From NCBI GenBank assembly GCA_029570205.1, contig JAKQSI010000056.1, positions 1-48,108 on the forward strand: a stretch of 48,108 nt of DNA. The letters are read 5' to 3'. Shown here piece after piece: positions 147 to 48,108 of the stretch (position 1 is its first letter; each line of letters starts with the position of its first letter). A program made the translations under genes and the position numbers. The notes beneath the pieces were generated by a model that made no database searches, was not told the origin of the DNA, and worked only from the letters and a program-made list of their open reading frames with translations. This DNA comes from Candidatus Omnitrophota bacterium (GTDB taxonomy: Bacteria; Hinthialibacterota; Hinthialibacteria; Hinthialibacterales; JAKPRU01).

Positions 147-394
147 GACAGGCCTCCGTGCCTGTCAGATTGAGGAACAGTAGGACAGGCCTCCGTGCCT
201 GTCAGATTGAGGAACAGTAGGACAGGCCTCCGTGCCTGTCGAAGGAAGATGAACGGTAGGACAGGCCTCCGTGCCTGTCGAAGGGAGATGAACGGTAGGA
301 CAGGCCTCCGTGCCTGTCAAAAGAAGATAAACAGTAGGACAGGCCTCCGTGCCTGTCAGATTGAGGAACGGCAGGACAGGCCTCCGCGCCTGTC
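147..394. repeat. Seven-copy hairpin-repeat array (family A)
   Basis: Seven copies of GACAGGC-CTCCGT-GCCTGTC are spaced about 38 bp apart. Each can form a 7-bp stem with a 6-nt loop; the last copy has loop CTCCGC. Spacers are also similar (AGATTGAGGAACAGTAG or GAAGGAAGATGAACGGTAG types), so whole units have duplicated in tandem. The array directly follows fliG and is not coding: the apparent ORFs across it on both strands only translate the repeat. Further copies lie at 31407-31426 and 31875-31894. Confidence 0.95.
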
Positions 395-434
395 GAAAGA
401 AGATAAACCTCCACCTGTCATCGTATTCTTACTC

Positions 435-2609
435 TCACCTTGACCGCGCCCGCCTCCTTGGCATGTCGATATCAGGTTCCGTGATGTTGTCCTGCTCTTC
501 GGCAATGCTGAATTGAATGCGGTAAGGGGTATTGGAGAACAACTGCCCGTCTATTGTGCGAAGTTTCTTCCCGATCGTGATCGAATACCGTGTCCCGGCA
601 TTCAATCCTACCTCCACCTCGATTCTTCCACCTGATCCGCGAGGTCGTGTAAAGAATTCCGGCACGGATTGTGCGTGCGGATTAATCTGGAACGCTGCGC
701 TCAGACTGGCCAGATCAACGGGCGCATTGGTGTCGATAATCAGGCGGTGTATCGGAAACAGAAGCACATTCCTTGCCCCGTCTTTCGGGACACTGCCGAC
801 GATCAGAGGGCCATCCGTCGTAAATCGAAAAACATAATCGTTGCGTAACGGTATCCCTTTCGGATTGGATGCCGACCGGCGGATGGCAACCTCATAGGTT
901 GTTTTAAACTGGAGCCCCTGAGGTCCCTGGCGCAATAAACGGAGGTGCAGTGTATCGTGATCCGATAGCTCACTCTCCCGACCGAAAAACATGTCCAGGG
1001 CAACGGCCGGTGAAACAAGAACGCTGCTCTTGACGGAATTCCCATCCATCGTCTCGCTGAACTTGACCGTAACATCGAGGAATTGATCGAAACCCACGTT
1101 CCGTGCCCGATTCGGAGGATTCGAGCTGACTACGTAAGGATGCTCGACCTCTCGTTTCAGTACCACTGGAGGAAGGGAAACGGTTTCTTCGGGAAAGACA
1201 GTTACGTCTTCCAGGTATTCGGTCTGATACCCCGCCTTTTCAAAGATAACCAGGTGTTTTCCTGCCGGAACATCCTGAAAGAAAAAGAGGCCTCCGGGTG
1301 CGGATAAGGTTACCTGGCTCGTGGTCTGAACGGCCACCGTCACGCCACCGGCAGTGTTGTTATCTTCCAGTGTCACCATTCCTTCGATGGCTCCGTATCC
1401 CTCCACACCCTGTTCCAGGTCCTCTTCCGTGACTCGGCCCAGCGTCAGAGGGGGCGCTTCACTGATGATGCTCGCGCCGATCTCCACATCGAACAGCCGC
1501 TCGGTCCGGTATCCCGGATGCGAAGCTTCCACCACATACTTCCCGCTTGGAATATCCACGAAAATATACCGGCCTTCCGCGTTTGTTATCACGCTTTGCT
1601 GGATTCCGATCAGCCGCACCGTCGTCCCTTCGTGACTTGTTTGATCCTGAAGAGTAACGATTCCCTGCAAAACGCCACGACCGACCTGTCCGGCGCTTCG
1701 GCGCAGGGTCACAAAAAGCCCGATCCCCTCCGTCGCAGAGAAAGGTGTCACATTAGGCACTTGTTCCGTGTTGAATCCCGCATGAGAAAACTCCACTGTG
1801 TATGGGCCTTCTCCAAGATTCTCCAACCGGAAACTGCCGTCTACCGAAGTAGTTGTTGCAGACCCCGGAACTTCAAGCACGCTCACCATGGAGCCGCTGT
1901 GATTGATCTCCCCATCCAGCAGAACTCTTCCCCATAAGCGCCGGTCACCGAGAACCGGCTTTTCAATCTCCGCCGCGAGAGTGGGTACAATGGACGGAGA
2001 AAGCACGATATCCGGCAGAATTACCGCCGCCGGTTCGTCTACAGTCACCTGAAGATCGCTGACACTCTGGTATCCGTCTTTAAGGGCGATGAGTTGATAC
2101 GTGCCCATTTCCACTTTATCGAATCGAAAGACACCGCTTTCGTCGGTGGTTGTAGAGTGCGGGGTTCCCAGGAGCAGAACAATTGCGCCGGAATGATCTT
2201 CCCGACCTTCCAGTCGGATTCGTCCCCGGATACTGCCTGTTTTGGGCGGAAGAGGAATCAGGGGCTGGCTCGCAAGAGTAACCTGTGCCCCGGCCGGAAT
2301 CTGTACGGTTTGCCGGATTTCTTCATACCCCTCTTCGCTTGCGACCAGCTCATACTCTCCGGCCATAATCCCCCGGATGTGGAATCGCCCCTGGCGGTCG
2401 GTGAAAGCCTGGTGGGATGTACCGGGCAGGAATACGTGAATTCCTTCGCTGTCCGCCGTATCCGCGAGAACAAACTGCCCCGACAAATCGCCTTCCGGGC
2501 TTGTTCGGGCGCAACCGAACAGAAGCGAGGCGGCAATGATCCCGCACACAAGGATCAATCCGGCCACGGCTCTCGGTAACCTCTTAGAAAAACGATGAAT
2601 CGACCGCAT
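435..2609 (-). CDS. Lipoprotein with five carboxypeptidase-regulatory-like repeats and two SbsA Ig-like domains
   Basis: The 724-aa protein begins with a long hydrophobic signal ending in the lipobox LLFGC, so Cys33 is the probable lipidation site. Five beta-sandwich repeats of the carboxypeptidase-D regulatory-like type follow, starting near residues 42, 125, 225, 313 and 406. Each has the pattern G..V.L......T...G.F.F.....G.Y.L......Y. Two SbsA/Big_5 Ig-like domains follow, starting with VSSNPPNRARNVGF near 491 and VGSVPKDGARNVLL near 605. No catalytic domain is visible, so I infer a surface-exposed binding or structural protein. A GGAGG lies about 14 nt before the ATG. It stands alone on the minus strand, with a chemoreceptor remnant upstream of it. 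Confidence 0.85.
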   Translation of the reverse strand: MRSIHRFSKRLPRAVAGLILVCGIIAASLLFGCARTSPEGDLSGQFVLADTADSEGIHVFLPGTSHQAFTDRQGRFHIRGIMAGEYELVASEEGYEEIRQTVQIPAGAQVTLASQPLIPLPPKTGSIRGRIRLEGREDHSGAIVLLLGTPHSTTTDESGVFRFDKVEMGTYQLIALKDGYQSVSDLQVTVDEPAAVILPDIVLSPSIVPTLAAEIEKPVLGDRRLWGRVLLDGEINHSGSMVSVLEVPGSATTTSVDGSFRLENLGEGPYTVEFSHAGFNTEQVPNVTPFSATEGIGLFVTLRRSAGQVGRGVLQGIVTLQDQTSHEGTTVRLIGIQQSVITNAEGRYIFVDIPSGKYVVEASHPGYRTERLFDVEIGASIISEAPPLTLGRVTEEDLEQGVEGYGAIEGMVTLEDNNTAGGVTVAVQTTSQVTLSAPGGLFFFQDVPAGKHLVIFEKAGYQTEYLEDVTVFPEETVSLPPVVLKREVEHPYVVSSNPPNRARNVGFDQFLDVTVKFSETMDGNSVKSSVLVSPAVALDMFFGRESELSDHDTLHLRLLRQGPQGLQFKTTYEVAIRRSASNPKGIPLRNDYVFRFTTDGPLIVGSVPKDGARNVLLFPIHRLIIDTNAPVDLASLSAAFQINPHAQSVPEFFTRPRGSGGRIEVEVGLNAGTRYSITIGKKLRTIDGQLFSNTPYRIQFSIAEEQDNITEPDIDMPRRRARSR

Positions 2610-2639
2610 CGATGAGTATTTTTCCTCCTGAACTCCTGC

Positions 2640-3015
2640 AGGAAACGGACCGCCTCACGCCATCCCCCACAATGAATGCCGACCGTCGCGCACGGCCTGT
2701 CACACCGTTCAACTTTGCCACGAACGAGATGAACAATCTCGCCGGCTCCCCGATTTCGTCTTTCGTCCGAATTTCCACACGATGGGCCAGATCTCCTTCA
2801 TCCCGGTCGAACTTCTCCAGAAAATGCGTAAACTCCGCCCACAGCCTCCGGACATACTTTCGAATCGGAAGATACATGGGGCAATCAGTGCCACGATAAT
2901 CACCACAACCGTCAGGATCGTGGTCTGCAAACTCCTTCCGACCAGTTCGGTCATACTCTGTTTTGCCCGCTCTTTTGCATCCGACAACGCCTGAGTGGAA
3001 AACCGGCAATAGGAT
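2640..3015 (-). pseudogene. Frameshifted remnant of a methyl-accepting chemotaxis/HAMP sensor protein
   Basis: Two minus-strand frames join into one sensor-like protein. The first reads STQALSDAKERAKQSMTEL and then a transmembrane stretch (TTILTVVVIIVALIAP). The second picks up at the same spot with PIRKYVRRLWAEFTHFLEKF and DLAHRVEIRTKDEIGE, which is a HAMP domain with its conserved proline and DEIGE box. It continues briefly as FISFVAKLNGVTGRARRSAF. The frame changes near 2870-2880, at the membrane/HAMP junction. No periplasmic sensor domain and no full signalling tip remain, so this is a decayed fragment of a chemoreceptor (or, less likely, a histidine kinase). Confidence 0.65.
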
Positions 3016-3177
3016 GTACCCCCCCAATTCTCCCGTTTTCCAGGTGAAAACGTATCGGATACAATCCGGTTTACATGCGGGTAGAATAATGGATGGACCC
3101 CTCAGACGGCAAGCCCGCCGAAAACAGACTGCCTGAACAGGGCAAACCACATCGCAACCGAAGTTCTACAAAAGAGC

Positions 3178-3250
3178 TGGGGATACCCCCCTCTCCGTTC
3201 TTGGCGAGGGTCTGGGGATACCCCTCCTCTCTCCATCCTTGGAGAGGCGC
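3178..3250. repeat. Intergenic direct repeat and hairpin between sensor remnant and rtcB
   Basis: The non-coding stretch 3016-3373 holds two copies of CTGGGGATACCCC (3178-3190 and 3212-3224). The second is followed by a short hairpin, CTCTCCA-loop-TGGAGAG. The C-rich/G-rich style resembles the CCCCACCT hairpin family found at 14132, 24906, 31679 and 33154. No gene was recognised in this stretch. Confidence 0.6.
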
Positions 3251-3373
3251 CGGGTGGTGAGGCGAAGGGCTTGGAAATAGGCATTATATCGTGCCCCTGA
3301 AGTCGCCCCCTGTGCCTGTCGGTTGTCCGGCGATACACTGTTTTCAGACAAACAACACAGGGAATAATTAACC

Positions 3374-4564
3374 ATGAAAATCCGAAATGTCCCCGGGGGC
3401 GTGCCCCTCTATCTCTATATTGAAAACCTCGAACCCGGTGCGCTGGAACAGGCCGAGAACTGCGCACGGCTCCCGTTTGTTTTTCATCACATTGCGATCA
3501 TGCCGGATGCGCACGAGGGCTATGCCATGCCCATCGGTGGCGTCATGGCCTGCCGGGACCATGTGGTTCCTTACGCGGTGGGGGTGGATATCGGCTGCGG
3601 AATGCTCGCCGTGCGCACCTCCCTGAAAGCGCACGAGGTACAGGGTGATCTGGAGAACGTTGTCAATGAAGGATTCCGAAGAATCCCTGTCGGATTCGAT
3701 TGGCACAAGAAACCCCAGAGCGCCGATCTCTTCTCTATCTGGGATGATGGAAAAAACAAAAAACGGCGGCACGGTGAAGAGACCCTGCCTGTTGTCACGG
3801 AACATCTGGACGAAGTCCGAAAGCAGCTGGGAACCCTGGGTGGCGGGAATCATTTCATTGAAATCCAGGTGGACCAGGAGGGGCATGTCTGGATGATGCT
3901 CCATTCCGGGTCACGGAATATCGGCCTCAAGGTCGCGAACCATTATCACAAGCGCGCCCAGGAGTACGTGAAAAGCAGGAACATCCGTGTCGGCAAGGAC
4001 TATTCCTATCTGCCCGTGAGTCATGAGGACGGCCGACTGTATCTCGATGAAATGGATTTCTGTGTCCGGTTCGCGTTCGAGAACCGCGACCGGATGCGCG
4101 CCGTTATGTTGGACATAATACGCGAAGTGCTGCGAAAAGATTTTCAGATTCTCGAAGATGTCCGCACGGCTCATAATTACGCAAGCTGGGAGGAGCACTA
4201 CGGTGAGAGAGTGCTGGTCCATCGTAAGGGCGCCGTGCGGGCGCGTAAGGGTGAACTGGTTACAATCCCCGGTTCTATGGGCACGGCGAGCTATATCGCG
4301 CGCGGAAAAGGCGCTCCCGAATCGTTCGAGTCCTGCTCCCATGGCGCGGGACGGTCCATGGGGCGACGGCAGGCCCTCAAAGCAATCTCAAAGGAGGAAT
4401 TCGAACACCAGATGGGTCACGTTGTTCTTGGTTGCCCCAAGATCAAAGACGCGATCCAGGAAGCGCCTGCCGCATACAAGGATATCGACGAGGTGATGCG
4501 TCAGCAGGCAGACCTGGTGGAAATTGTGCATCGACTCACACCCTTGGCGGTTTTGAAAGGATAA
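3374..4564 (+). CDS. rtcB: RNA-splicing ligase RtcB
   Basis: At 396 aa this is a normal-length RtcB, the GTP- and Mn2+-dependent ligase that joins RNA 3'-phosphate (or 2',3'-cyclic phosphate) to 5'-OH ends. Metal-site residues are visible: Cys75 in VGVDIGCGM, His160 in GTLGGGNHF and His177 in LHSGSRN. His323 in SCSHGAGRSMG is the family's guanylylated histidine. The ATG is preceded by AGGGA about 10 nt upstream. There is no archease or RtcA next to it, so it is solitary here. Its 3' end overlaps the 3' end of the convergent DNA methyltransferase gene by 29 bp. Confidence 0.95.
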   Translation: MKIRNVPGGVPLYLYIENLEPGALEQAENCARLPFVFHHIAIMPDAHEGYAMPIGGVMACRDHVVPYAVGVDIGCGMLAVRTSLKAHEVQGDLENVVNEGFRRIPVGFDWHKKPQSADLFSIWDDGKNKKRRHGEETLPVVTEHLDEVRKQLGTLGGGNHFIEIQVDQEGHVWMMLHSGSRNIGLKVANHYHKRAQEYVKSRNIRVGKDYSYLPVSHEDGRLYLDEMDFCVRFAFENRDRMRAVMLDIIREVLRKDFQILEDVRTAHNYASWEEHYGERVLVHRKGAVRARKGELVTIPGSMGTASYIARGKGAPESFESCSHGAGRSMGRRQALKAISKEEFEHQMGHVVLGCPKIKDAIQEAPAAYKDIDEVMRQQADLVEIVHRLTPLAVLKG

Positions 4565-5915
4565 TCGGAACCGAAACGGTGGTTTCATTCCCGAAAACAT
4601 CCACAATGCGCACGCCGACCCGCTCAATTTCCGACGGCAAGGGAATCTCTCGAATCTCTTTTTCAACAGGAGCGCTGTCCCGCTTGCCGTTTCGACTTCG
4701 ATAAAATCGACTTTGAAAAATACCTTCCTCGGATTCGTAACCCACACACCAGGAATCCAGCGCGTACGCAAAGTCCGCTTGCAGGATGTTCCGGGTGCGC
4801 TCTTCCTGTACGGAGCTCTTCAAGGGGATCTCCGCCAACCGATAATCCCTCAGACGCACGGTGACCGGGCCGGTCTGTCCGTATCGAACGGCTTCCACGG
4901 CGACCGTCGCAGGGGATTCCTCCGGCATTCGATCCTCACTCCGCTCCAGTACGAAACCGTGGACTTCTGAATGCAGCAGCCGTCTGCGTGTTACCTGGAT
5001 CGCCGGTGCGCTCTGATCGACCGCGATCCATCGCCGGTCCAGGTTTTCTGCGGCTACAGGCGTTGTCCCGGAACCACAGAAAAAATCCGCCACCCAGTCA
5101 CCGGGACGGGAACAACATCCGATAATTCTCTCCAGCAGCTGCAAAGGTTTCTGGGTCGCAAAGCCCTCACGCTCCGTGCGGTCGTTCTGCGCAATGTGTG
5201 GGATCTCCCACACATCGCCGTGTATCTTCCCCAGCGGGTGATAATAATGCGCCTTGCAGGCCGGAATGTTGATATTCGGACTGTACGGTGTCCGGGCGTA
5301 TGGGGATTCGCTGTCCAGAAAGGCCGTGTCAGGATTCTTCGCGTAACGCAGGATGGTGTGGTGACGGCGTCCGAATACATTTCGTTCGCGAGGCCCGCTG
5401 TTGAAATACCAGATAATCTCGTTGAGAAATCCATCCGGCAGAATCCCATCCATCACCACTTTCACGTAATGCACACGCCGATGATCCAAATGAATAAACA
5501 GATTTCCATCTTCGGCTAGAAGGTCGGCCATCAGACGCAGGCGCGGTGCCAACATGGAAAGATACGATTCGATGCCTCCCTCCCATGTATCCCTGTACGC
5601 GAGACGGTCCACGAGGGGAGCCTCACGTGTGATTTTTGTTCCATCCAGCACAACGCGGTGCCGATAGTCGCTCTGGGAATCGAATGGAGGATCGACATAA
5701 ATCAGGTTGATTTTCCCGGCGTACCCGTCGTCCAGAAGGTTTTCCATCACTTCCAGGTTATCGCCGTGAATCAAGCGGCAGGGGGAGTCGGGGAAGGGAC
5801 GGGAAGGGGAACCGATCTGTTCCACTGGAACCGCACGCACGCCCGACCGACGCAGGCGCAACGGCCCCGTTGGAAATTCGCCCGGTAAAACCTTCGATAA
5901 CGGAAGGGCGGCCAC
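4536..5915 (-). CDS. Solitary beta-class (Mod-like) DNA methyltransferase
   Basis: This 459-aa protein starts at GTG. DPPF (residues 75-78) comes before the SAM-binding motif DFFCGSGTT (277-285); that order defines beta-class amino-methyltransferases acting on adenine N6 or cytosine N4. The C-terminal third (roughly 330-459), with the ending VRIVDVFGNETTVSV, resembles the accessory domain of Mod-type enzymes. No restriction endonuclease or specificity subunit is adjacent, so this is probably an orphan methylase for regulation or protection, or one half of a split restriction system encoded elsewhere. It converges on rtcB. Confidence 0.85.
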   Translation of the reverse strand: MAALPLSKVLPGEFPTGPLRLRRSGVRAVPVEQIGSPSRPFPDSPCRLIHGDNLEVMENLLDDGYAGKINLIYVDPPFDSQSDYRHRVVLDGTKITREAPLVDRLAYRDTWEGGIESYLSMLAPRLRLMADLLAEDGNLFIHLDHRRVHYVKVVMDGILPDGFLNEIIWYFNSGPRERNVFGRRHHTILRYAKNPDTAFLDSESPYARTPYSPNINIPACKAHYYHPLGKIHGDVWEIPHIAQNDRTEREGFATQKPLQLLERIIGCCSRPGDWVADFFCGSGTTPVAAENLDRRWIAVDQSAPAIQVTRRRLLHSEVHGFVLERSEDRMPEESPATVAVEAVRYGQTGPVTVRLRDYRLAEIPLKSSVQEERTRNILQADFAYALDSWCVGYESEEGIFQSRFYRSRNGKRDSAPVEKEIREIPLPSEIERVGVRIVDVFGNETTVSVPIILSKPPRV

Positions 5916-6096
5916 GATCCGATCTCAACCCCTTACTGGCCGTGGAACCTCTCACGGCAGGATCGCTGTCGCCTCCACGAAATTACAGCAGATGTAATTT
6001 GGACTATAGTCCTTGTGATCTCATTTGACAAGACCATGCGCCTTGTCTTATTGAGATCAACCGTTAGGCTGGCGGGGAAAAGGGCGACCCTGGAGT

Positions 6097-6115
6097 GCGG
6101 GAGCGCAGCTCCCGC
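6097..6115. repeat. Palindromic hairpin in the queG upstream region
   Basis: GCGGGAGC-GCA-GCTCCCGC forms a perfect 8-bp stem with a 3-nt loop, 28 nt before the queG start. It is preceded by GGAGT, as is a degenerate GGAGTGCGGCAG motif at 34614, so it is probably another dispersed repeat rather than a queG-specific regulator. Confidence 0.6.
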
Positions 6116-6142
6116 CTTTCTCCGGCTGGAATCGGACACACC

Positions 6143-7093
6143 ATGGATCCAATCCACTTGTCAAACGCCATCAAACACGAAGCCTGGCGACTTGGCTTCG
6201 ATCCGGTCGGCATCACCGGCCCGGAACCGCCCGAATCCGCCCCCCAATTTCTGGACTGGATCCGAAAGGGGTACCACGGAGAGATGCTCTATCTGGAACA
6301 GCGCGCGCAACAGCGGCTTGACTTGCGTTCCGTCTTTCCTCCTGTTCGCTCCGTGATCGTTGTCGGCATGAACTATGCGCCCGATCCCACAACCGCTCCG
6401 GCAGGGAAGGGAAGAGTCTCCTGTTATGCGTGGGGGAAAGATTATCACATCGTGATGCGCTCCCGCATGAAGCATTTATTAGCCCGTGTGCGGGAACAAA
6501 CGGGTGTTTCTTTCGCAGCCCGAATCTGTGTCGATACGGCGCCGGTGCTGGAACGTGACCTGGCCCGACGCGCGGGCTTGGGATGGATCGGCAAGAATAC
6601 CTGCCTGGTCAATCGCAATCTCGGAACATGGCTTTTCCTGGGAGTAATTCCGACAAATTTGGATCTCCCGCCGGACACGCCGCAAAAGGACCGATGCGGC
6701 ACATGTCGAAAATGCCTGGATGCCTGTCCCACCGGCGCTCTGATCGCGCCCAGAATCCTGGATGCACGCAAATGTATCTCCGCCCTGACTATCGAATGCA
6801 GAACAAGCATTCCAACAGAATTGAAACCTTCCATCGGCAACCACCTGTTCGGCTGTGATGAATGTCTCTCCGTCTGTCCGTGGAATCGTTTCTCCCGGCC
6901 CACCAGAGAGCCGTCTTTTCAGCCGATCAACCGGGACATCCTGTTCGATCCGCCGTTCTTTCTGAATGTCGGCGAATCCGAGTTCCGTAAGAGATTTCAG
7001 AATACCCCGCCGGCGAGAACGGGACGTGCAGCCCTGGCCCGCAACGCCGCCATCGTCCTGGACAACCTGCGGAAAAAGGAATCGACAGCCTGA
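6143..7093 (+). CDS. queG: Epoxyqueuosine reductase QueG
   Basis: QueG carries out the last step of queuosine tRNA modification, reducing epoxyqueuosine to queuosine with a cobalamin cofactor and two [4Fe-4S] clusters. In this 316-aa protein the cluster cysteines are in CGTCRKCLDACPTGAL (185, 188, 191, 195) and CDECLSVCPWN (238, 241, 245), with Cys211 between. Asp131 in VDTAPVLERDLA is the expected catalytic acid. I chose the ATG at 6143 (MDPIHLS) because the upstream in-frame extension is low-complexity and crosses the hairpin at 6097. No other queuosine gene is nearby. Confidence 0.93.
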   Translation: MDPIHLSNAIKHEAWRLGFDPVGITGPEPPESAPQFLDWIRKGYHGEMLYLEQRAQQRLDLRSVFPPVRSVIVVGMNYAPDPTTAPAGKGRVSCYAWGKDYHIVMRSRMKHLLARVREQTGVSFAARICVDTAPVLERDLARRAGLGWIGKNTCLVNRNLGTWLFLGVIPTNLDLPPDTPQKDRCGTCRKCLDACPTGALIAPRILDARKCISALTIECRTSIPTELKPSIGNHLFGCDECLSVCPWNRFSRPTREPSFQPINRDILFDPPFFLNVGESEFRKRFQNTPPARTGRAALARNAAIVLDNLRKKESTA

Positions 7094-7192
7094 CCTCGTC
7101 CTCCCGTCGCTTCTGTCTCATTCGTCTCATCGGTCCTATTGCTCCCATTAACACCTCATTACAAAACCATTACCCCTCCGCATAATGCCACC

Positions 7193-13140: not shown

Positions 13141-13146
13141 CGCAAT

Positions 13147-31041: not shown

Positions 31042-31599
<558 letters not shown>

Positions 31600-31713: not shown

Positions 31714-31787
31714 GACAGAGAGGGAGTTGCGCGTATCTCCACTCCCCGGCCTGCGGTGTCTGCGACCGTGCTTTCCACCTTTCTTTG

Positions 31788-31894
31788 CCAGGCAGAGACG
31801 CCTGGCCTACTGCCAGGCAGAGACGCCTGGCCTACTGCCAGGCAGAGACGCCTGGCCTACTGCAAAAATAGTAGGACAGGCCTCCGTGCCTGTC
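31788..31894. repeat. Mixed array: three family-B hairpins plus one family-A hairpin
   Basis: Three tandem copies of GCCAGGC-AGAGAC-GCCTGGC start at 31788, 31813 and 31838 (25-bp period, reverse to the 47612 array). A single GACAGGC-CTCCGT-GCCTGTC follows at 31875. The two families lie side by side here, with shared CTACT/AGTAGG junctions, which shows they are one related group. Confidence 0.9.
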
Positions 31895-35618: not shown

Positions 35619-35883
35619 ATGATAAATTAAGAATTAACCCAAATTCGTCAAGGTTTGGTTTGGAAGAGGGCTGCAGAACACCGGATATGGGGGCTGGGGG
35701 ATTCGGGAAATAGTGCCGGTAATAAACACTCGCATCAGTAAAATCAACCACTTACAAACTTTGATGTCGAATTTGGATTGGCCCCCATTGTGTGGCAAGG
35801 GAGGTTCTTTTATGCGGTTGTGGCGGAAGGAGGAACCTTCACCCGGTCGCTTCTCCCGGGAGAAAAGAGGCATTTTCCGCCGT

Positions 35884-35907
35884 AGGGGCACGTTGCAACG
35901 TGCCCCT
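35884..35907. repeat. 24-bp perfect palindrome
   Basis: AGGGGCACGTTG is followed immediately by its reverse complement, giving a fully self-complementary 24-bp site within the 322-bp gap 35619-35940. No gene was recognised in the gap. It is probably a dispersed repeat; only one copy is seen in this window. Confidence 0.8.
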
Positions 35908-38593: not shown

Positions 38594-39268
38594 ATGTCTT
38601 CATCCGATCGAAACAAAGGCCCTGACACTCAATACTACACACGTGAGAGCCAGTCCAGGTATTCCCCCTCCGGGAAGAACCCCCAGGCAGCGGCGGTAAC
38701 CGAATCGAACCGGTTTGTGTGCCGGCATTGCGGGATACCGTTTGCTGTGATTCGGAATGCGCGGAAGTTGCAGCTGCTGCGTGAGGGGATCATCAAGCGA
38801 CCGTTGTGCGCACCGTGCCAGGAGCGGGATCGGGAATTGCTGACTGCCGTGAATCAGTGCCTTCGTGTGCTGGGCGGAGCGTGTACCGTGGCGGAGGTAG
38901 TGGGAATCTATTCGGATGAGACACTGGCACGATCCCTGTTCAAAGACCCTTTCGTGAAAGTCCGTGCCCGATATAACGGGAAAGAGACATTAACCGTTCA
39001 GGATATCGAGGGCTGGATCGAAGAAGGCGTGATTCAATTTGACGAACACGGTCAGATCAAACCGAAACCCAAGGGATTCCTGCACGACCTGGAGTTGCGC
39101 CAGCAGGTTCGGGAAGCGCGGGAGGAGATGATCGACAAGCAGAAACCGAAAGATACGTTTCCCGATGAAGGAGGCACGGTGTTTGTGTCGCGCAGAAGCA
39201 AGAAGGGCGGGGCTTCCATCGGGGCAGAGTATTGGGAGACGCTGAAAGATGCCGAGTCGGTCAAGTAG
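38594..39268 (+). CDS. Zinc-finger protein of unknown function, YvyF-like in outline
   Basis: The 224-aa protein has a disordered, Ser/Pro-rich N-terminus (1-40), then a zinc knuckle with Cys43/46 (FVCRHCGIPF) and Cys72/75 (PLCAPC). A helical domain with TVAEVVGIYSDETLARSLF and VQDIEGWIEEGVIQF follows, and a charged tail (QQVREAREEMIDKQKPK). The knuckle plus small helical domain loosely recalls flagellar-operon proteins of the B. subtilis YvyF type, but similarity is weak. Two strong promoters (P1, P2) suggest high or dual expression. AGAAGG precedes the ATG closely. It is the first plus-strand gene before the protease and TPR genes. Confidence 0.8.
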   Translation: MSSSDRNKGPDTQYYTRESQSRYSPSGKNPQAAAVTESNRFVCRHCGIPFAVIRNARKLQLLREGIIKRPLCAPCQERDRELLTAVNQCLRVLGGACTVAEVVGIYSDETLARSLFKDPFVKVRARYNGKETLTVQDIEGWIEEGVIQFDEHGQIKPKPKGFLHDLELRQQVREAREEMIDKQKPKDTFPDEGGTVFVSRRSKKGGASIGAEYWETLKDAESVK

Positions 39269-39403
39269 AAATTCCGCCTGATTTTCATACCATTCCTTTA
39301 TGCCTCAAATCCGAATAACGCGACTGGGGTCGCCCCGACAAACCGGCAGCGGCAAGCCACCGTGCTTGTCCGTATGAAATCACAACCGAAACGGGAATAA
39401 ACC

Positions 39404-41233
39404 GTGATCCCGATTCTCTTTCTCATACTCGTTCTCAGCCCGCTGCAATTGGAGATTACTCCGCTCGACTGGCAGACGGAGGGATCCAGGCAGTTGGAGC
39501 GAGAGCTGCGCAGCCGGGGTATTCCGATCCTTCGGGTAATTGACGTGCGAACCTCGGATATCGCTCCTCTGCCGGAAATCAGAAAATACATCCGTTTACC
39601 CCTGCCGGAGGATACCCGTGTGTTGCTGGTCGATGGCTCCAGCCCGGCTTTCAATGAGCAGTTCGCGGTACGTCTCCAGCCGGATGGGAACACCCAGAGT
39701 ATCGACGGATTCACACAGGGACGCCTGATCGCCATCCGTGTTCCCGGCTCGCTTGAGAAACGATTCAATGAGGTGTTTCGTCATGAGTTGGTTCATGCGT
39801 ACCTGAATGTCGTTGCGCCGGGAAGGAATCTGCCGCCGTGGTTGGAAGAGGGACTGGCCTGCTATTTCTCCGGCAGTCCCAATCATCTGAACCATGAAAC
39901 ATACCGCCTTTATGAGCGCGACATGCGGTACCTGTTTGACCACTACTCAGACCGGGTTCCGTATTTCCTGGCCGATGCCCTCTCCTCCATGGATACCAAC
40001 AATGCGCTTTTTCTGCATCTCCGCATTCCTGATTCGGTCCGTTTGCATATCATGCGGCTGTCCTGGGAAAACGCCTTGTGGATTTCAATTCTTCTGGTTC
40101 CCGTGTTGGCATTTATATTCGGCAGATTTCTCAGCGAGTTGCTCTATCCATGGTATGTCGGGGTACGACGCAGATATCTTGGATATCAATATATGAAACG
40201 GCTCCGAAAACTGGAGCGGAGAATACGTTCGGAGATTCCGCATCCTGTGGTGCAGTTTGTCGCCGCTGCACAAAAAGCGGCAGCGCAAGCGGATATTGCA
40301 AGGCGGTCTGCCGAACGGCTGGAGCATCGGCTGCACGAGATTTCCTGTAGATTTCTTGATTGCGCGGATTCTCTTGTCACATATTTCGCCCCCCGTTTCC
40401 CCGGATTCGGCGTCTATATGAATGCGTTGGGGGAGGCGCTCCATACCATTCATGTATTTCGTGACGCTGGTTCCGGGATTTCATCCGGTCTTGCGCAAGC
40501 AGAAGCCGGTCCGGTGATGATGGAACAAGCGCCGGCAGGGATGGACCGGGCAATTTCGGCAATCGGCAAGATCGCGCTTGCTCGACCGTCCTTTCCTCCC
40601 GACCGATGCGTTCGAAGATGGATCGGCGCCCAAGAGGACTGGAAAAGGGAACGGGAACAGCTGCGCGCGTTGTGGGCCGAGACAGCGAGCGAGTTTGAGG
40701 CTTTGCGCGGAAGGTGCAGAGAATTGGGTGAGTATTCGTCCGACCTGTCAATCCTACCTGAATCCTCGCCGGTCTCCGGGAGGGGCCTTTCGGAGACATT
40801 TTCGGATGTTCATCCGCTCCTCGCATACGGAATTGCCGTTCGGGATGCGCTTGACCAATGGCAGGCGGGGATGATCTCTCTGCCGGAAGCGGTGGAAACC
40901 ATACGCCATGCAGAGCAGAGACGGTTTCAGGATTTCCGAACCTGGATCGATGACCGGGATACCGGGGCGCTTTTTCGTGGGGACCAACGGGTTGCGGAGT
41001 TTGTCGAGGCGCTGGCGCAAGGGAACATGGGAGGTCCGGCGCGACGATGGGGGTATCAGGACTTTGTTCCGCGTATCCGCCGAGAGGGGTATTTGCGCTG
41101 GCTTTGTCCGCCTGATGCGCTGGAGGCCGCGTCATTTATGCTGTTTTTCTGCATTTTCGGCGCATCCTGGGTGTATCTCCGGCGCTTCTGTGCGTTCTTT
41201 CTTCAGGGTGTAGATCGTTTGCTTGGAGGATAA
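39404..41233 (+). CDS. Membrane-bound gluzincin-type metalloprotease of unusual architecture
   Basis: Starting at GTG, the 609-aa protein has a signal/anchor (IPILFLILVLSPL), then a peptidase-MA-like domain with the zinc motif HELVH (127-131) and downstream glutamate ligand E149 in PPWLEEGLACYF. A membrane helix follows at about 225-247, then a ~330-residue helical cytoplasmic region (coiled-coil-like), and a last membrane helix (about 580-600, SFMLFFCIFGASWVYL). So an extracytoplasmic protease domain is linked to a long cytoplasmic part. I know no named family with this layout. The TPR gene follows on the same strand after 244 bp. Confidence 0.8.
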   Translation: MIPILFLILVLSPLQLEITPLDWQTEGSRQLERELRSRGIPILRVIDVRTSDIAPLPEIRKYIRLPLPEDTRVLLVDGSSPAFNEQFAVRLQPDGNTQSIDGFTQGRLIAIRVPGSLEKRFNEVFRHELVHAYLNVVAPGRNLPPWLEEGLACYFSGSPNHLNHETYRLYERDMRYLFDHYSDRVPYFLADALSSMDTNNALFLHLRIPDSVRLHIMRLSWENALWISILLVPVLAFIFGRFLSELLYPWYVGVRRRYLGYQYMKRLRKLERRIRSEIPHPVVQFVAAAQKAAAQADIARRSAERLEHRLHEISCRFLDCADSLVTYFAPRFPGFGVYMNALGEALHTIHVFRDAGSGISSGLAQAEAGPVMMEQAPAGMDRAISAIGKIALARPSFPPDRCVRRWIGAQEDWKREREQLRALWAETASEFEALRGRCRELGEYSSDLSILPESSPVSGRGLSETFSDVHPLLAYGIAVRDALDQWQAGMISLPEAVETIRHAEQRRFQDFRTWIDDRDTGALFRGDQRVAEFVEALAQGNMGGPARRWGYQDFVPRIRREGYLRWLCPPDALEAASFMLFFCIFGASWVYLRRFCAFFLQGVDRLLGG

Positions 41234-41477
41234 AAGCGCACAGGGAATCTGAAAAATGGAGCTGTTCACGTATGGACGGCCGGGCAAAATTATGTCATAA
41301 TAGGTTTAGTATGCGAGTCGGGGTCTCCGATTCCTTGTGCGGCATGGTATTGGAAGGCGGTAAGGCGACGCGAAACCGGCAGCGCGTTCGTCGGTTGACA
41401 TATCGGGAGAATCCGGCGGGATTGCGCGGACCCGTCACCGACCTGCGGACGCGGCTGACTTGGATGATTGGGCATTC

Positions 41478-42857
41478 ATGATGGCACAACCGTCCAGCTT
41501 CCTGTATCACTACCGTCATGCACTGAACCTCTTCCAGAGCGGTCACTACGAAGAGGCGCTCACCGCTTTGAAAAATGCCCTCCTTATGGAACCTAATTTC
41601 CCGGACGCTTATGTCGCCATTGCGAAAATTCATGATGAACTGGGAAATTACGAAGACAGCATTTCTCTGTACAAAAAGCTGGAGAGCATGCTTCCGAACG
41701 ACCAGGAAATTTCCAAACGTCTGGCAGCGGCCTATGAGAAATCGGGCGACAAAAAACGCGCTGTCCGGAAGATGAGACAGGTGATTCGAAGCAATCCCCG
41801 TGACACCCAGGCCCGATGTCAACTCGCCCGGTGGCTGATTGCAGACCGCAGATTCCGGGCAGCGAACTCTCTTCTCCGCAAGGGGATTCGTGTCGTGGGA
41901 ACCTGCGCGGAGTTTTACAATCTCATGGGCGAAATCCGCCGTTACCAGAAAAAACTCGAGATGGCTCAGGAGTATTATGAGCAATGCCTGGAAATCGATC
42001 CGGACCATTCGGGCGCGAAACGCGGGATCAGCCAGGTAATTCGCGCGATGGATGCCGGAGACGCCGCTGTCGCCTCCGATCAGGACTCCCAGGACACGGA
42101 AGCCCGGGAAGAGCTGGTTGAAGCGGCTCAGCTGTTCACGGACGGCAAATACGATGTGGCAATTGTCAAGCTCCAGGCGCTTCGGGAGAAACGTGCGGTA
42201 AAACGTCAGGCATCCATCCTCTTGGGTCTGGCTTATGTCAGGAAAAGCCTGTTCAAACGGGCACGCGATATCTTTTATGATCTCGCCAATACGATGCGCC
42301 CGGAGACTCTTGTCCTGTTCAACCTGGGTCTTACGTCCAATCGGATCGGGGAATATGAGGTTGCCATTCGCGCATTGACAGAAGCGCTGGAGGCCGACCC
42401 GGAATACTATGAGGCCCTGCTGGAATTAGGATTTGCCTACCAGCGAACCGACAATATCAAAAAAGCCAGGGAAACCTATCTGCGGGCCATTCGCCTGACC
42501 GCAAGCGATCCGCGAGCGTACGCATTAATCGCGCGCCTGGAATATGATCTGAAACACAAAAAGCAGGCGGAACAGATCCTGATGCGGGGTCTCCGAATCG
42601 ACTCCCAATCCCCCGAACTGCTTTTGACCCAGGGGTATATTCTTCTGAAAGAGAAGCAGCCTCAACGAGCTGTCGGCCCACTTCAACAATGTGTGAAACT
42701 GGCTCCCAACTCCTTTGAAGCGCACAGGAACTTGGGGCATGTGCTGGAACTGCTGGGGAACACTGTCGCGGCAACCAAAAGCTACCGTATGGCCTATCAG
42801 CTCAATCCCAGCGATGAAGATTGCCGTCTGCAGATCGAGCGGCTGGAGAGCGTGTGA
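41478..42857 (+). CDS. TPR-repeat protein
   Basis: The 459-aa protein is built of roughly eleven tetratricopeptide repeats with the W/L-G-Y-A-P pattern, for example HALNLFQSGHYEEALTALKN, LGLTSNRIGEYEVAIRALTE and LGHVLELLGNTVAATKSYRM. There is no signal peptide or membrane helix, so it is a cytoplasmic scaffold for protein complexes. ATG 41478 overlaps the TGA of a doubtful short frame that starts at 41311. It follows the membrane protease gene and may serve it. Confidence 0.9.
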   Translation: MMAQPSSFLYHYRHALNLFQSGHYEEALTALKNALLMEPNFPDAYVAIAKIHDELGNYEDSISLYKKLESMLPNDQEISKRLAAAYEKSGDKKRAVRKMRQVIRSNPRDTQARCQLARWLIADRRFRAANSLLRKGIRVVGTCAEFYNLMGEIRRYQKKLEMAQEYYEQCLEIDPDHSGAKRGISQVIRAMDAGDAAVASDQDSQDTEAREELVEAAQLFTDGKYDVAIVKLQALREKRAVKRQASILLGLAYVRKSLFKRARDIFYDLANTMRPETLVLFNLGLTSNRIGEYEVAIRALTEALEADPEYYEALLELGFAYQRTDNIKKARETYLRAIRLTASDPRAYALIARLEYDLKHKKQAEQILMRGLRIDSQSPELLLTQGYILLKEKQPQRAVGPLQQCVKLAPNSFEAHRNLGHVLELLGNTVAATKSYRMAYQLNPSDEDCRLQIERLESV

Positions 42858-42871
42858 AGCCTTGTCTCAAC

Positions 42872-42899
42872 CGTCATTCCGGCTTTCGCCGGAATGACG
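42872..42899. repeat. CGTCATTCCGGC palindrome
   Basis: A 12-bp stem, CGTCATTCCGGC with GCCGGAATGACG, and a TTTC loop lie between the convergent TPR and RNA methyltransferase genes. This sequence style is widespread as a dispersed repeat in many bacteria. It may also act as a terminator, although there is no U-run. Confidence 0.8.
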
Positions 42900-42920
42900 C
42901 GCTCGCCTCAACGTTCTGTC

Positions 42921-44126
42921 TCAGACCGGCTCCAGCAGGGCCAGGACCTCGACATGCGGGGTATGGGGGAACATGTCGAAGGCTTTGAGGAAGAATGGGC
43001 GATAGCGACCCGCATCCGCGAATCGGGCCAGGTTGTCCGCCAATGCCTTCGGATTACAGGAAAGACAGGCGATGCGGCATGGGGGACAGGCATCGAGAAA
43101 GGCAAATACCTGCCTGCTCAGTCCGGCACGCGGCGGGTCCAGAATAATGACATCTTTTCCCCGCAGATCGAACGGTGGCCGTTGAACAGAGGCAACATCC
43201 GATTGCATGACACGCACATTGCCGAGTCCGTTTCGACGGATGAATTCGTGTGCCGTCTCGACATTAACCGGGTCTATCTCAATTCCAAGCGCTTCCGCTA
43301 CCCTGTCGGATAGCGATCCGCCGATCAACCCCATGCCGCAATACAAATCCAAAACTCTTTCCTGTCCGCTGAGATTCAGCGCGTCCGCCAGAGTTTCGTA
43401 GATTGTTGCGGCCACGGTCAGATTCGGCTGCATAAAGGTCCGTGAATAAATCGGCGCCTCCAACCCCAAAAACCTTTCTGTGATGAAAGGCTGACCGAAC
43501 ACCAACTCCGAACGCAGCGGCGCGGCGACATCCGCCACTCCCGGCACGTAACTCCAATATAATCCACGCAATTCGGGGCAAGATTGAGTCAGATGTTTTG
43601 CCAATCCGGCAATAACTTGCATGTTTTCCTCTGCGGTCATTATATCGGCAAGGAACCGACGGGTGGCGCAGGTCCCCCGAATCAAAAGGTACCGCCAGAA
43701 TCCATCGTGGCGGTTCTTGTGGTATGCGGGCAATCCTGAATCCCGTGCAAATTCGCGCACCGCCCAGAGAATCCGTGAAAACTCACTTGGGCAAAGATGG
43801 CATTCCTCCAAGTCGATTAAATCCCAATACTTTCCCCTCCGATGCAGTCCCAATACCAGGCGGTCATCCCGTGAGGAGAATGTAAACTCCATCCGATTCC
43901 GGTACTCCCACAGGATCGGGGAAGGATACACATCCAGGGTTTCCAGAAGGTCCGGAGGCACAACAGGAGCCGACAGTTCCCGCAAGTCGGAGCGTTTTTG
44001 CTCCAGTTGCAGGTGATAAGGGATGTCCTGAGTCCGGCAGCCGCCACAGGTCCCGAAATGCGGGCATCGGGCTGCGCTTTGTCGGTTTTCCTGGTCCATT
44101 TTACCGTTCAATTCAGAGTATGACAT
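42921..44126 (-). CDS. 23S rRNA m5U methyltransferase, RlmD/TrmA family
   Basis: The 401-aa protein makes 5-methyluridine in rRNA or tRNA. The N-terminal [4Fe-4S] cysteines lie in CPHFGTCGGCRTQ (21, 27, 30), with a fourth in ECHLCPSEF. The SAM domain has LDLYCGMGLIGG, DPPRAGLSRQV, the nucleophile region CLSCNPKAL and DMFPHTPHVEVLA at the end. These features point to the RlmC/RlmD subgroup rather than TrmA, but the exact target is unsure. It is divergent from the solute-binding protein gene, with starts 53 bp apart. Confidence 0.9.
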   Translation of the reverse strand: MSYSELNGKMDQENRQSAARCPHFGTCGGCRTQDIPYHLQLEQKRSDLRELSAPVVPPDLLETLDVYPSPILWEYRNRMEFTFSSRDDRLVLGLHRRGKYWDLIDLEECHLCPSEFSRILWAVREFARDSGLPAYHKNRHDGFWRYLLIRGTCATRRFLADIMTAEENMQVIAGLAKHLTQSCPELRGLYWSYVPGVADVAAPLRSELVFGQPFITERFLGLEAPIYSRTFMQPNLTVAATIYETLADALNLSGQERVLDLYCGMGLIGGSLSDRVAEALGIEIDPVNVETAHEFIRRNGLGNVRVMQSDVASVQRPPFDLRGKDVIILDPPRAGLSRQVFAFLDACPPCRIACLSCNPKALADNLARFADAGRYRPFFLKAFDMFPHTPHVEVLALLEPV

Positions 44127-44154
44127 TGATGGCGAATTGTATAAAAAATACTAT
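44126..44154 (+). promoter_or_regulatory. Sigma-70 promoter of the solute-binding protein gene
   Basis: TTGATG (44126-44131) and TACTAT (44149-44154) are 17 bp apart, with the -35 at the start codon of the divergent methyltransferase gene. Transcription near 44161 gives a leader of about 18 nt with GGAGGG 8-9 nt before ATG 44179. Confidence 0.6.
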
Positions 44155-44178
44155 AGTGATGACTGGAGGGAAATCGAA

Positions 44179-45192
44179 ATGATCCGGCTCATCCTGATCC
44201 TCATCTCGACATTCGGAATCGTTTTATCGGCATTTGGGCAAGAGGCAGAAGTGGTGGTTTACACTGCCCTGGACCGGATCTATTCGGAACCGTTGCTGAA
44301 AAAATTCGAACAACAAACGAATATCAAGGTCCTTCCGATTTATGACACGGAATCGAATAAAACTGTCGGTCTGGTGAATCGCCTGATCGCAGAAAAAGCC
44401 AGGCCACAGTGCGATGTGTTCTGGAACAACGAGGTTGTCCGAACACTGGTTCTCAAAGACAGGGGGGTTCTTGCGCCGTACGCTTCTCCCATGGCCGTGG
44501 AAATCCCCGAAAAATACCGTGATCCCGAGCATTTCTGGACAGGTTTCGCCGCCCGCGCGAGGATTCTCATCGTGAATACCGATCTGGTTTCGGAAGCGCA
44601 TCTTCCCGGTTCCGTCTGGGACCTCGCCGATCCCCGCTGGCACGGTCAGACTGCAATCGCCAATCCGATGTTCGGAACCATGGCCACACATATCGCCGCC
44701 CTGTTTGCTGTCCTCGGGCCGGAAAAAGCCAAGAAGTATTTCCAGGCAATCAAGAAGAACAAGACGGTTCTTGCGCCCAGTAATTCGGCGGTTCGAGACA
44801 TGGCCGCACGGGGCGAGATCGCTTTCGGCCTGACGGATACGGACGATGCCAACGGAGCCATTGAGGACGGCAAGCCCGTAAGAATTGTGATTCCTGACCA
44901 GGAAGACGGTGCAATGGGGGTTCTGGTCATCCCCAATACCGTTGCCCTGATCGCCGGGGCGCCACATGAAAGGGAGGGTCAGCGGCTGATCGACTTCCTG
45001 CTCTCAGAAGAAACCGAGGAGTGCCTTGCCCAGTGCCGATCTGCGCAGATCCCTCTGCGTCCCGGTGTAGAGAAGCCGGAAAACACGCTGGACCTGGAAA
45101 AACTGAGGGTCGTGGACATTTCCTATCCTCAAGTTGCGGAGACTCTTCCGAACTCGATGCAATTTGTTCACGAGGAATTGCCTGGTTTTTAG
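44179..45192 (+). CDS. Iron(III)-type ABC transporter solute-binding protein (FbpA-like)
   Basis: GGAGGG selects ATG 44179; 337 aa. A signal peptide (MIRLILILISTFGIVLSAFG) leads a two-lobe periplasmic binding fold: VVVYTALDRIYSEPLLKKFE, then IYDTESNKTVGLVNRLIAEK, VFWNNEVVRTLVLK and the hinge AARARILIVNTDLV. This is the group that includes FbpA-type Fe3+ and some thiamine or phosphonate binders. No permease or ATPase follows, so its transporter is encoded elsewhere or it is solitary. Confidence 0.9.
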   Translation: MIRLILILISTFGIVLSAFGQEAEVVVYTALDRIYSEPLLKKFEQQTNIKVLPIYDTESNKTVGLVNRLIAEKARPQCDVFWNNEVVRTLVLKDRGVLAPYASPMAVEIPEKYRDPEHFWTGFAARARILIVNTDLVSEAHLPGSVWDLADPRWHGQTAIANPMFGTMATHIAALFAVLGPEKAKKYFQAIKKNKTVLAPSNSAVRDMAARGEIAFGLTDTDDANGAIEDGKPVRIVIPDQEDGAMGVLVIPNTVALIAGAPHEREGQRLIDFLLSEETEECLAQCRSAQIPLRPGVEKPENTLDLEKLRVVDISYPQVAETLPNSMQFVHEELPGF

Positions 45193-45388
45193 CGGTCGTT
45201 ACCCCGGCTCCCTTTCTAGCCTCACCTTCAGATGCGCTAACTTAAGTGATTGATAGATCATGGTGGGAGTGGAGGAAGATATCGTAGAAAGGTGACTCAG
45301 ACCGGTATTTGCATGAAGGAGTAACGCGTTCTCCCTTGTGATTGATTGCGATCCGACAGAGTAAAAAGGCAATCGAACGGCCGTTCAG

Positions 45389-45622
45389 ATGTCGGAATTG
45401 TATCCGCTTCATCGGCAGATCGAGCGGATTTTCAAACGCTTGAAGACCATTCTTACATCACGAAATCTGTGTGTGAAGGACCCGCAATTAGCGAAGATAT
45501 ACCTCTTTTCGAAAACCCTCGGAGCGTTATTCATGGGGGATCAGACAGATAGGAACGAATACTTGTCTCTGGGAGGCATTCGAAAAGAACATCAGGAAAT
45601 TGAGGCGCCACCTGCGGGATAA
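45389..45622 (+). pseudogene. IS4-type transposase C-terminal fragment
   Basis: The 77-aa frame starts MSELYPLHRQIERIFKRLKT and continues ILTSRNLCVKDPQLAKIYLF and SKTLGALFM. It fits the C-terminal segment of IS4-family transposases, where the YREK signature reads Y..RWQIE..FKR.K. Tyr, Glu and Lys are in register, but the Arg is a His and the usual Trp an Arg, and the catalytic DDE core is absent. AACTTAAGTGATTG at 45239-45252 loosely resembles the MITE end at 9401, but it is too degenerate to call an IS end. Confidence 0.65.
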
Positions 45623-45659
45623 TCCAAGGCGGAGAGAGAAACAACAGTGGCCCATAACC

Positions 45660-47450
45660 CTACTGGCCTCCCTTGGACCAGTTGAAACCAGGCCGGTTGA
45701 GCATGGTGCGGACGCGGACCGTGTAAGTGTGACAGCGGGCAACATGTTCCTGTCCCGCAGAGGCGAGGCTTTCCCGCGCGGCTTTGTTTTCAAGAAGGTC
45801 GGCGACGGTTTCGTAGAGAGACTCCGGGGATTTTGGAAACCGCGCATGAACACTGTCGGTCAGGAGTCCCTGCTCGCAGTCTGCTACCCAGTCCGCGACA
45901 AGGCAACCCCCTGAAATCAGCACATCGAAATCTCTTGCGTTCAAACAGGTCGGGCATTGGCAACTATGCAGACCGATATTGACTTGGGTGGAACGATAGA
46001 GGTCCGGAACATTGTCAACGCCGATTCTTCCATGAATACGTTCCGGGGGCATTTCCGGGAACAGGACTCCCCAAGTGTCGGTTCCATACAGGTGCAAACC
46101 GAGAGGAATCAGGGGCCGGAGGTAACGGACTCGTTTTTCACTATTGGCGGCCACATAGAGGAAATAGGCGACTGCCGCCGTGTTTCGCAGAGGAGTTGCG
46201 CGCCAGACACCGACGACTTTCTCGATCATCCCCAGTGCCTGTTTCGATGGCGAGACCATCCGGGCGCATTCCATGGGGGTCTCGGCATTCCCGCTTACGA
46301 GACGGTCTACCTGATCTAGGATGGCACCGCGGTCAGCCTGCGGCAATACAGAGAAGACATCTTTGAGATCGGTCACATTCCCTACAAAAGCGACGGGGTG
46401 TTGAAATCTTTCCCGGACCTGTCCGGCTCGTGTCACACCGGCTGCGACGGGCAGAAATCCACCCTTTTGAGCAGGGGAACATCGCAATGCAGGTTCGAAT
46501 GTCCGATCCATCCAGAATACAGTGTCACGGTCATCGAACGAGTCCGGGCCGATTGTAGAGTAAAAATCCGAGTTATCGGAGAACCAGGCGACTCGTCGCA
46601 GCGATCGGAGAAAGGGATTGTCTTTCCGCATTCCGAGCGGCCGAACAAAGTCACCGCCCGGCGTGTTTAAAAGCACGACAAGATCCGGCCGGACCCGTGC
46701 CAGACTGGTCAAGATCCGCAGCGGCACGGTCCGGCAGGGCTGGATGGACTCGATATGGACCGAAAGACCATTCGCGCGGAACCCATCCGCAATAGCGTGA
46801 ACGATGGGCGCATGAAAACTGTTGGGGACATTGTATGTCCAGATTTGAGTCGGCCCATGTTCGGGGACGGTCACAGGCTCTCGCAGGGAACGGCATACCG
46901 AGGAATTATCCGGGGCAATTTCGGTATACGCGGAGGATATCGCGGTTTGATATGCCTGAGTTTCCTCGGCGGAGAGACCCGGAACAGGTAATGCGGCGAT
47001 CAGGTTCCAGCCGATCATGTAAAGCGATTCGCGTCGAAGAAGGTCGGCGAGTTTCGATCTCAGGTCAGGGCCAATACACCAATAAACATCCGGCGAACTG
47101 AGAACCGCGCGGAGATCGTACAGATGAAATGCGGAACGGACGGAATCCTCGGAATGCTCCAGGAGAACCACGACGGCATCGGGCCTTGTGTTCGGATTTG
47201 CTAAAACCGCCGGGACGAGTCCGGCGTGAATGCCCATAAAGAGAACGAGCTGAGCATGTTGGAGGCGCTGGATCTGTCGTTCCAGGTAGGCGCGAGGCCG
47301 TTGTGATTGCTCAGTGGGGGTCGGGAGCGGTTCGAAATCGGGACTGCTCTCAAGAATGTGTGGGTCCAGACCGGACTGCGGGCGTATGCAGGCCATATTT
47401 TGCGAGAGGATTTCATCCACTCGCGGGATATGTGAAGGGTGCTGGGGCAA
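45660..47450 (-). CDS. Maf-like N-domain plus CgeB-like glycosyltransferase, paralog 2
   Basis: This 596-aa protein is the full-length relative of the gene at 7193-9169. The N-terminal domain has LVLFMGIHAGLVPAVL, VVLLEHSEDSVRSAFHLYDL and VLSSPDVYWCIGP. The C-terminal domain has FVGNVTDLKDVF, VNIGLHSCQCPTCLNARDFD and VLISGGCLVADWV. The expected activity is transfer of a sugar to a protein or glycan in the cytoplasm; flagellin is the most likely acceptor in a flagellated cell. It lies between the IS4 fragment and the right-hand hairpin array. Confidence 0.75.
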   Translation of the reverse strand: MPQHPSHIPRVDEILSQNMACIRPQSGLDPHILESSPDFEPLPTPTEQSQRPRAYLERQIQRLQHAQLVLFMGIHAGLVPAVLANPNTRPDAVVVLLEHSEDSVRSAFHLYDLRAVLSSPDVYWCIGPDLRSKLADLLRRESLYMIGWNLIAALPVPGLSAEETQAYQTAISSAYTEIAPDNSSVCRSLREPVTVPEHGPTQIWTYNVPNSFHAPIVHAIADGFRANGLSVHIESIQPCRTVPLRILTSLARVRPDLVVLLNTPGGDFVRPLGMRKDNPFLRSLRRVAWFSDNSDFYSTIGPDSFDDRDTVFWMDRTFEPALRCSPAQKGGFLPVAAGVTRAGQVRERFQHPVAFVGNVTDLKDVFSVLPQADRGAILDQVDRLVSGNAETPMECARMVSPSKQALGMIEKVVGVWRATPLRNTAAVAYFLYVAANSEKRVRYLRPLIPLGLHLYGTDTWGVLFPEMPPERIHGRIGVDNVPDLYRSTQVNIGLHSCQCPTCLNARDFDVLISGGCLVADWVADCEQGLLTDSVHARFPKSPESLYETVADLLENKAARESLASAGQEHVARCHTYTVRVRTMLNRPGFNWSKGGQ

Positions 47451-47494
47451 GCAGGTTCTCCGGCTGAATGTTTCGTTCCCTTCTTTGATCTGCC

Positions 47495-47570
47495 GAGATT
47501 CCTCACATTCGTTCGGAATGACAACCGACCTGTCATTTCGATCAAAGGGAGAAATCTCACCGTCGGGACA
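47495..47570. repeat. Dispersed repeat with CATTC hairpin
   Basis: GAGATTCCTCACATTCG and CATTC-GTTCG-GAATG, followed by TGTCATTTCGATCAAAGG, recur in part at 33094. It lies just upstream of the paralog 2 gene and next to the large array. Confidence 0.65.
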
Positions 47571-47611
47571 CGGGCAGGGCGCGAGCCTGAGATCGCCACG
47601 TCGCAGCCCCC

Positions 47612-48108
47612 AGTAGGCCAGGCGTCTCTGCCTGGCAGCCCCCAGTAGGCCAGGCGTCCCTGCCCCTGGCAGCCCCCAGTAGGCCAGGCGTCCCTGCCTG
47701 GCAGCTAAGTAGGCCAGGCGTCCCTGCCTGGCAGCCCCCAGTGGGCCAGGCGTCCCTGCCTGGCAGCCCCCAGTAGGCCAGGCGTCCCTGCCTGGCAGCC
47801 CCCAGTAGGCCAGGCGTCCCTGCCTGGCAGCCCCCAGTGGGCCAGGCGTCCCTGCCTGGCAGCTAAGTAGGCCAGGCGTCTCTGCCTGGCAGCCCCCAGT
47901 AGGCCAGGCGTCTCTGCCTGGCAGCTAAGTAGGCCAGGCGTCTCTGCCTGGCAGCCCCCAGTAGGCCAGGCGTCTCTGCCTGGCAGCCCCCAGTAGGCCA
48001 GGCGTCCCTGCCCTGGCAGCCCCCAGTAGGCCAGGCGTCCCTGCCTGGCAGCCCCCAGTGGGCCAGGCGTCCCTGCCTGGCAGCCCCCAGTAGGCCAGGC
48101 GTCTCTGC
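47612..48108. repeat. Sixteen-copy hairpin-repeat array (family B), cut by the window edge
   Basis: Sixteen units, the last truncated at the edge, repeat AGTAGG-CCAGGC-GTCYCT-GCCTGGC with spacers AGCCCCC or AGCTA (32- or 30-bp periods). Each forms a GCCAGGC/GCCTGGC stem with a 6-nt loop (GTCTCT or GTCCCT). Two copies have C-insertions (GTCCCTGCCCC, GTCCCTGCCC). No gene was found here. Confidence 0.95.

Follow-up and report, generated by a model that had tools for sequence, protein, structure and literature searches.

Background

REPs that carry a GTAG tag are known in the PVC superphylum, where Opitutus terrae is rich in them, and the text of Di Nocera et al. (2013, PMC3733652) describes dimers of either orientation, tandem grouping, and subfamilies distinguished by alternative complementary residues of the stem. 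In the REPSm elements of Stenotrophomonas maltophilia (group 3), GTAG is followed directly by an 8-bp stem with a 3-nt loop, one base of which is critical (PMC8266576). Selection for complementary mutations has been inferred in REPs around genes for REP-associated tyrosine transposases, or RAYTs (Nunvar et al., PMC2817692). A phrase search of the literature returned no report of REPs or RAYTs in the Candidatus Omnitrophota lineage.

Here we analyse hairpin repeats in a stretch of 48,108 nt (the window), which is contig C116 of a 4.39-Mb genome assembled in 131 contigs. A blind reading of this DNA from its letters alone (the sequence-only reading) had picked out the repeats of what we interpret below as a REPtron before the enzyme was located.

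Hairpins in the window

The window holds 28 hairpin copies, including two with insertions in an arm and one truncated by the contig end; 25 matches are found at two mismatches or fewer, against 0.17–0.32 expected by chance from shuffled sequence. The stem consists of seven contiguous pairs and two forms occur, family A (GACAGGC-CTCYGT-GCCTGTC) and family B (GCCAGGC-GTCYCT-GCCTGGC). The sequence-only reading had placed both families correctly, apart from one start given as 31788 that lies at 31787; it had rightly set A-T against C-G at a single stem position, which is position 2, and had missed that the loops differ as well. Directly 5' of each copy, in the orientation of the element, stands a tag that reads GTAG, sometimes GTGG or GCAG, and, since GTRG precedes the hairpin in the window copies, the AGTAGG flank that the sequence-only reading had described as common to the two families resolves into this tag and the first base of the stem.

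Table 1. Hairpin elements of the window, by position
Feature	Position	Strand	Period (nt)
Seven family-A REPs, GTAG or GCAG tag, GACAGGC-CTCCGY-GCCTGTC	143..394	+	37-39
Lone family-A REP, GCAG tag (degenerate)	31407..31430	-	
Three family-B REPs, GTAG + GCCAGGC-GTCTCT-GCCTGGC	31787..31860	-	25
Family-A REP, tail to tail with the preceding B copies, tags facing, 10 bp between	31871..31894	+	
About 16 family-B REPs, array continues past the contig end	47613..48108	+	30-34

Tandem Repeats Finder reports 6.8, 3.1 and 15.9 units for the three arrays, with periods of 39, 25 and 32. The hairpins themselves, as distinct from the tagged elements of Table 1, span 147-394, 31407-31426, 31787-31856 and 31875-31894, and begin at 47617 in the last array. 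The first array separates two convergent reading frames, lying between their 3' ends. The last comprises 13 perfect copies, two with insertions and one truncated at 48108; the family-B copies at 47649-47670 and 47997-48017 have one or two additional C in the 3' arm. A CRISPR array was considered and rejected, the spacers being short, repeated and near-identical rather than unique. The lone family-A hairpin (within 31381-31430) precedes a P-II gene (glnB) by about 25 nt, counted to the start codon, in the sense orientation for that gene, and would thus be within the mRNA leader if transcribed; the P-II gene adjoins that of glutamine synthetase.

Copy number, placement and dimers

In the whole genome, 259 exact palindromes with the A stem and at least 451 tagged copies (pattern GTAGG-N-CAGGC-n6-GCCTG-N-C) were counted, with none for the reversed pattern that served as control; the spread of the hairpins is thus genome-wide. 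Their arrangement was followed in a sample of 20 stretches (about 0.36–0.4 Mb), together with three transposase loci, the window and short contig starts, a sample that is not random because the stretches were picked mostly around listed hairpin matches. The sampled element is 24 nt long, and its tag is chiefly GTAG, then GTGG, GGAG and GCAG. Although called open reading frames cover 87% of the sample, 167 of 178 copies are extragenic when frames created by the array periods are excluded; with those frames retained, 67 of 205 copies fall inside open reading frames, largely as an artefact of the periods. The clusters have no clear bias toward any single gene arrangement. Several long contigs, that of the window included, terminate inside hairpin arrays, and a hairpin is found at 4 of 40 unselected contig starts compared with 28 of 529 internal windows, an enrichment that is not clear since the internal windows come from stretches picked for matches.

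In about 0.4 Mb of this sample the copies form 45 clusters, of which 17 are singletons, in both orientations. Neighbours of the same type are head-to-tail repeats, mostly of 25, 30, 33 or 38 nt. Divergent neighbour pairs number 18. In 15 of them the two copies are exactly 26 nt apart in tail-to-tail arrangement, their tags pointing at each other with 2 nt between, and 13 of these 15 dimers combine an A loop with a B loop. In the nine close pairs that were read fully, one partner has A-T at stem position 2 and the other C-G, T-A or T-G. Given the unlike loops and stem pairs within dimers, we regard A and B as the partner units of a compound element, much as the y and z REPs are in the BIMEs of E. 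coli (PMC8266576).

A RAYT gene amid hairpin arrays

The window itself is devoid of a RayT-type enzyme, as the sequence-only reading had it. A search of the genome for Y1 transposases gives three intact genes, and a search with the RAYT model adds a fourth locus. The gene on contig C89 encodes a RAYT of 170 aa that scores 86.6 bits against NCBIfam REP_Tyr_transpos (cut-off 80), exceeds the Pfam cut-off too, and aligns its HVH motif and Tyr141 with those of the solved TnpArep structure 4er8 (a weak match, E 0.033). This gene is embedded in the hairpins, being bracketed by family-A arrays each of which includes an inverted B-loop hairpin with T-A at position 2; most of the flanking REPs are co-oriented and do not form simple inverted pairs.

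The association recurs in a sister species. A RAYT that is 90% identical to that of C89 and has the same two neighbour genes is encoded in a MAG labelled Candidatus Omnitrophota, with a B hairpin upstream and an inverted A hairpin downstream (locus L019). Among 41 genomes, the hairpin is nearly limited to the genus, being present in its three genomes and in one relative of the class, and the close RAYT is encoded in two of the genus's three genomes. In the sister genome G001, an assembly of 810 contigs, 52 hairpin copies and no RAYT match were found; the gene may have been missed by this assembly, or lost. The class relative, G012, also gives no RAYT match; its seven similar hairpins (loci L083, L171-L176) have loops such as ATCCCT, which would allow an A-T pair between positions 1 and 6.

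On this evidence we read the repeats, with their observed tag, copy number, extragenic placement, dimer rule, covariation and linkage to a RAYT here and in the sister species, as GTAG-tagged REPs that are organised as BIMEs or REPINs, with subtypes A and B pairing tail to tail in units of about 50 bp, non-autonomous and forming the REPtron of the C89 RAYT (probability about 0.93). The parallel with REP/BIME elements that the sequence-only reading had drawn is thereby borne out, and all three of the checks it had proposed favour it: the spread is genome-wide, the arms covary, and the genome has a RAYT amid hairpin arrays.

The other Y1 genes of the genome sit among different hairpins, so that every enzyme apparently has a hairpin family to itself. 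Contig C48 carries a second RAYT (L018 1250-2260), which scores 96 bits against REP_Tyr_transpos. It is flanked by arrays of another hairpin, GCGGGAGC-GTCA-GCTCCCGC, in which no GTAG tag is obvious; the genome holds 22 copies of this hairpin, and the two sister genomes 4-7. Long direct repeats with the palindromes CGTCCGAAGGACG and CCACCGTTTCAACGGTGG precede a gene for an IS200-like transposase (L016 840-1960, contig C51). The fourth, RAYT-like gene (L168 448-1077, minus strand, contig C126) contains two hairpins of a family of its own (GTAGGGGCACGTTGCAACGTGCCCCTAC) in frame, between its HUH half and its Tyr half; one hairpin of that family lies inside the window, at 35882-35907.

Covariation of the stem

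Position 2 of the stem was tabulated in 227 sampled copies, chosen by their 5' half with a loose filter on the 3' arm that allowed up to 3 mismatches in 6 and ignored position 2. The pair is C-G in 120 copies, A-T in 89, T-A in 4 and G-C in 1, against 13 mismatched, and when array copies are removed by taking a single copy per cluster, 40 of 45 are Watson-Crick versus 19 after shuffling. Loop positions 1 and 5 swap as well (G-C in 162 and C-G in 54 copies of the sample), family A having C-G and family B G-C; a 1-5 pair is compatible with both families, and the B loop can alternatively pair 1-6 as G-T, which is what its DNA fold favours. Both families of the sequence-only reading do occur, but they are not strictly separate, as the A-T stem pair is found in 31 of 150 sampled B-loop copies. 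Taken alone, A versus B is weak evidence of covariation because array copies are not independent; the strength of the case rests on the four pair types and on the relatives of the RAYT.

These relatives comprise sixty more distant loci, mostly of PVC-group genomes from Verrucomicrobia, Kiritimatiellae and Planctomycetes. A search in which the loop was not fixed found the gene to have GTRG hairpins both upstream and downstream in 22 of the 34 loci checked, with a loop that is nearly always TCY. In a further search, the tag and GTCYC were the only fixed elements and both arms could vary; it returned 137 matches, of which 128 have 6–7 of the 7 stem pairs. Each of stem positions 1-6 is occupied by three or four kinds of pair in appreciable numbers, and pairing among the 77 distinct sequences is 63–71 observed versus 25–39 shuffled; position 7 hardly varies and is therefore uninformative. 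This is strong evidence that pairing of the stem is maintained while the bases that form it are free to change. The earlier suggestion that secondary structure is what persists thus gains from arms that covary through four pair types in the genome and from covariation at six stem positions in the relatives.

The hairpins of the relatives have an 8-bp stem and a TCY triloop, and we infer that those of the window may represent that layout with a single T added on the loop's 3' side, a derivation that is put forward cautiously because the DNA fold of B favours the alternative pair. Within the genus, hairpins that have the window's stem but lack this T are all but absent, with a single match, GTAGGCCAGGCGTCCCGC, in G001.

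Alternative explanations

Template-switch correction of palindromes is known to occur during replication. If one arm were rewritten from the other in this way (quasipalindrome correction), the covariation would be mutational and would imply no need for the structure; the near-identity of copies within arrays, which reduces A versus B to a few events, and the scarcity of mismatched intermediates would both fit. We nevertheless hold this explanation to be unlikely, since the hairpins of the RAYT relatives vary at stem positions 1-6 while the loop and the tag are constant, so that the features that persist are the paired form, the tag and the loop. Template switching may still be a source of the double mutations without replacing the REP reading.

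Far less probable is that the hairpins persist because of a function in RNA, such as 3'-end protection, attenuation or termination, the RAYT being incidental. Their location outside genes, the stable RNA fold of the stems (-12 to -15 kcal/mol) and the copy just ahead of glnB would suit such a role, but T-tailed hairpins occur at chance level, a single terminator-like site being present in the window's first array and none in the last, and an Rfam search of the hairpins gave no match. The sampled clusters have no clear preference for a gene arrangement, and a role in RNA would leave unexplained the tag, the joining of unlike units in dimers and the hairpin arrays that surround the RAYT gene.

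Satellite-like tandem DNA that grows by slippage only, with no transposition, would account for the predominance of same-type direct repeats with fixed periods among neighbours, but it is very improbable in view of the many separate clusters, singletons among them, in both orientations and of tail-to-tail dimers made of unlike types.

A model for recognition and dispersal

Under the REP reading, the hairpin would form from one of the two strands where the DNA is single-stranded, as may happen on the lagging strand. By analogy with the enzymes of E. coli, Stenotrophomonas and Marinomonas, on which strand-specific recognition, cleavage and dispersal are modelled here (PMC8266576), the HUH/tyrosine enzyme would recognise the GTRG tag together with the folded stem-loop, cut near them, and move or copy the element into intergenic DNA. 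Head-to-tail arrays would presumably expand by slippage or recombination, as their fixed periods suggest. Compensatory changes in the stem would survive, we propose, since pairing is what the enzyme requires of the stem, and the sequence that it reads is mainly that of the tag and the loop.

A more speculative extension, which we consider less likely than not, is that a RAYT lineage found mainly in the PVC superphylum reads the GTRG tag and the TCY loop while the stem drifts through compensatory substitutions, and that in the genus studied here the loop acquired its extra T and the dimer partners came to have opposite base pairs at two positions. If so, these opposite pairs would weaken the pairing of the partners with each other and favour two separate, cuttable hairpins over one long one. 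A constant tag and loop with a freely covarying stem yield a clear prediction of what the RAYTs of this lineage read.

Comparison with known systems

As judged by the description in the text of Di Nocera et al. (PMC3733652), to which the comparison with their 24 GTAG families is limited, the window REPs share with those families a tag at one end that is GTAG, sometimes GTGG, and a stem length within the range of most of them (6-9 bp), and differ in the six-base loop with its extra T and in the Candidatus Omnitrophota-like host. The hairpins of the RAYT relatives have the layout of REPSm from S. maltophilia, and the loop, GCT in REPSm, is TCY in the relatives and has an additional T on its 3' side in the genus of the window (PMC8266576). 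As in the E. coli BIMEs with TnpAREP (group 2; PMC8266576), two unlike REP types are found in many places and around one RAYT; the GTAG tag is common to the window REPs and the y and z REPs, whereas the window stems are short and have no conserved AA-GC mismatch in mid-stem. REPINs (Bertels and Rainey 2011, PMC3116915) are likewise inverted REP doublets linked to a RAYT, some in tandem clusters, but in the typical dimer described here the spacer is only 2 nt and the partners are unlike.

GTAG REPs, subfamilies with alternative complementary stems and RAYTs are thus already in the literature, and the general picture of REP elements is unchanged. The family of the window is a well-documented addition to them, which places a REPtron in a lineage labelled Candidatus Omnitrophota, a label that is that of the nearest named relative.
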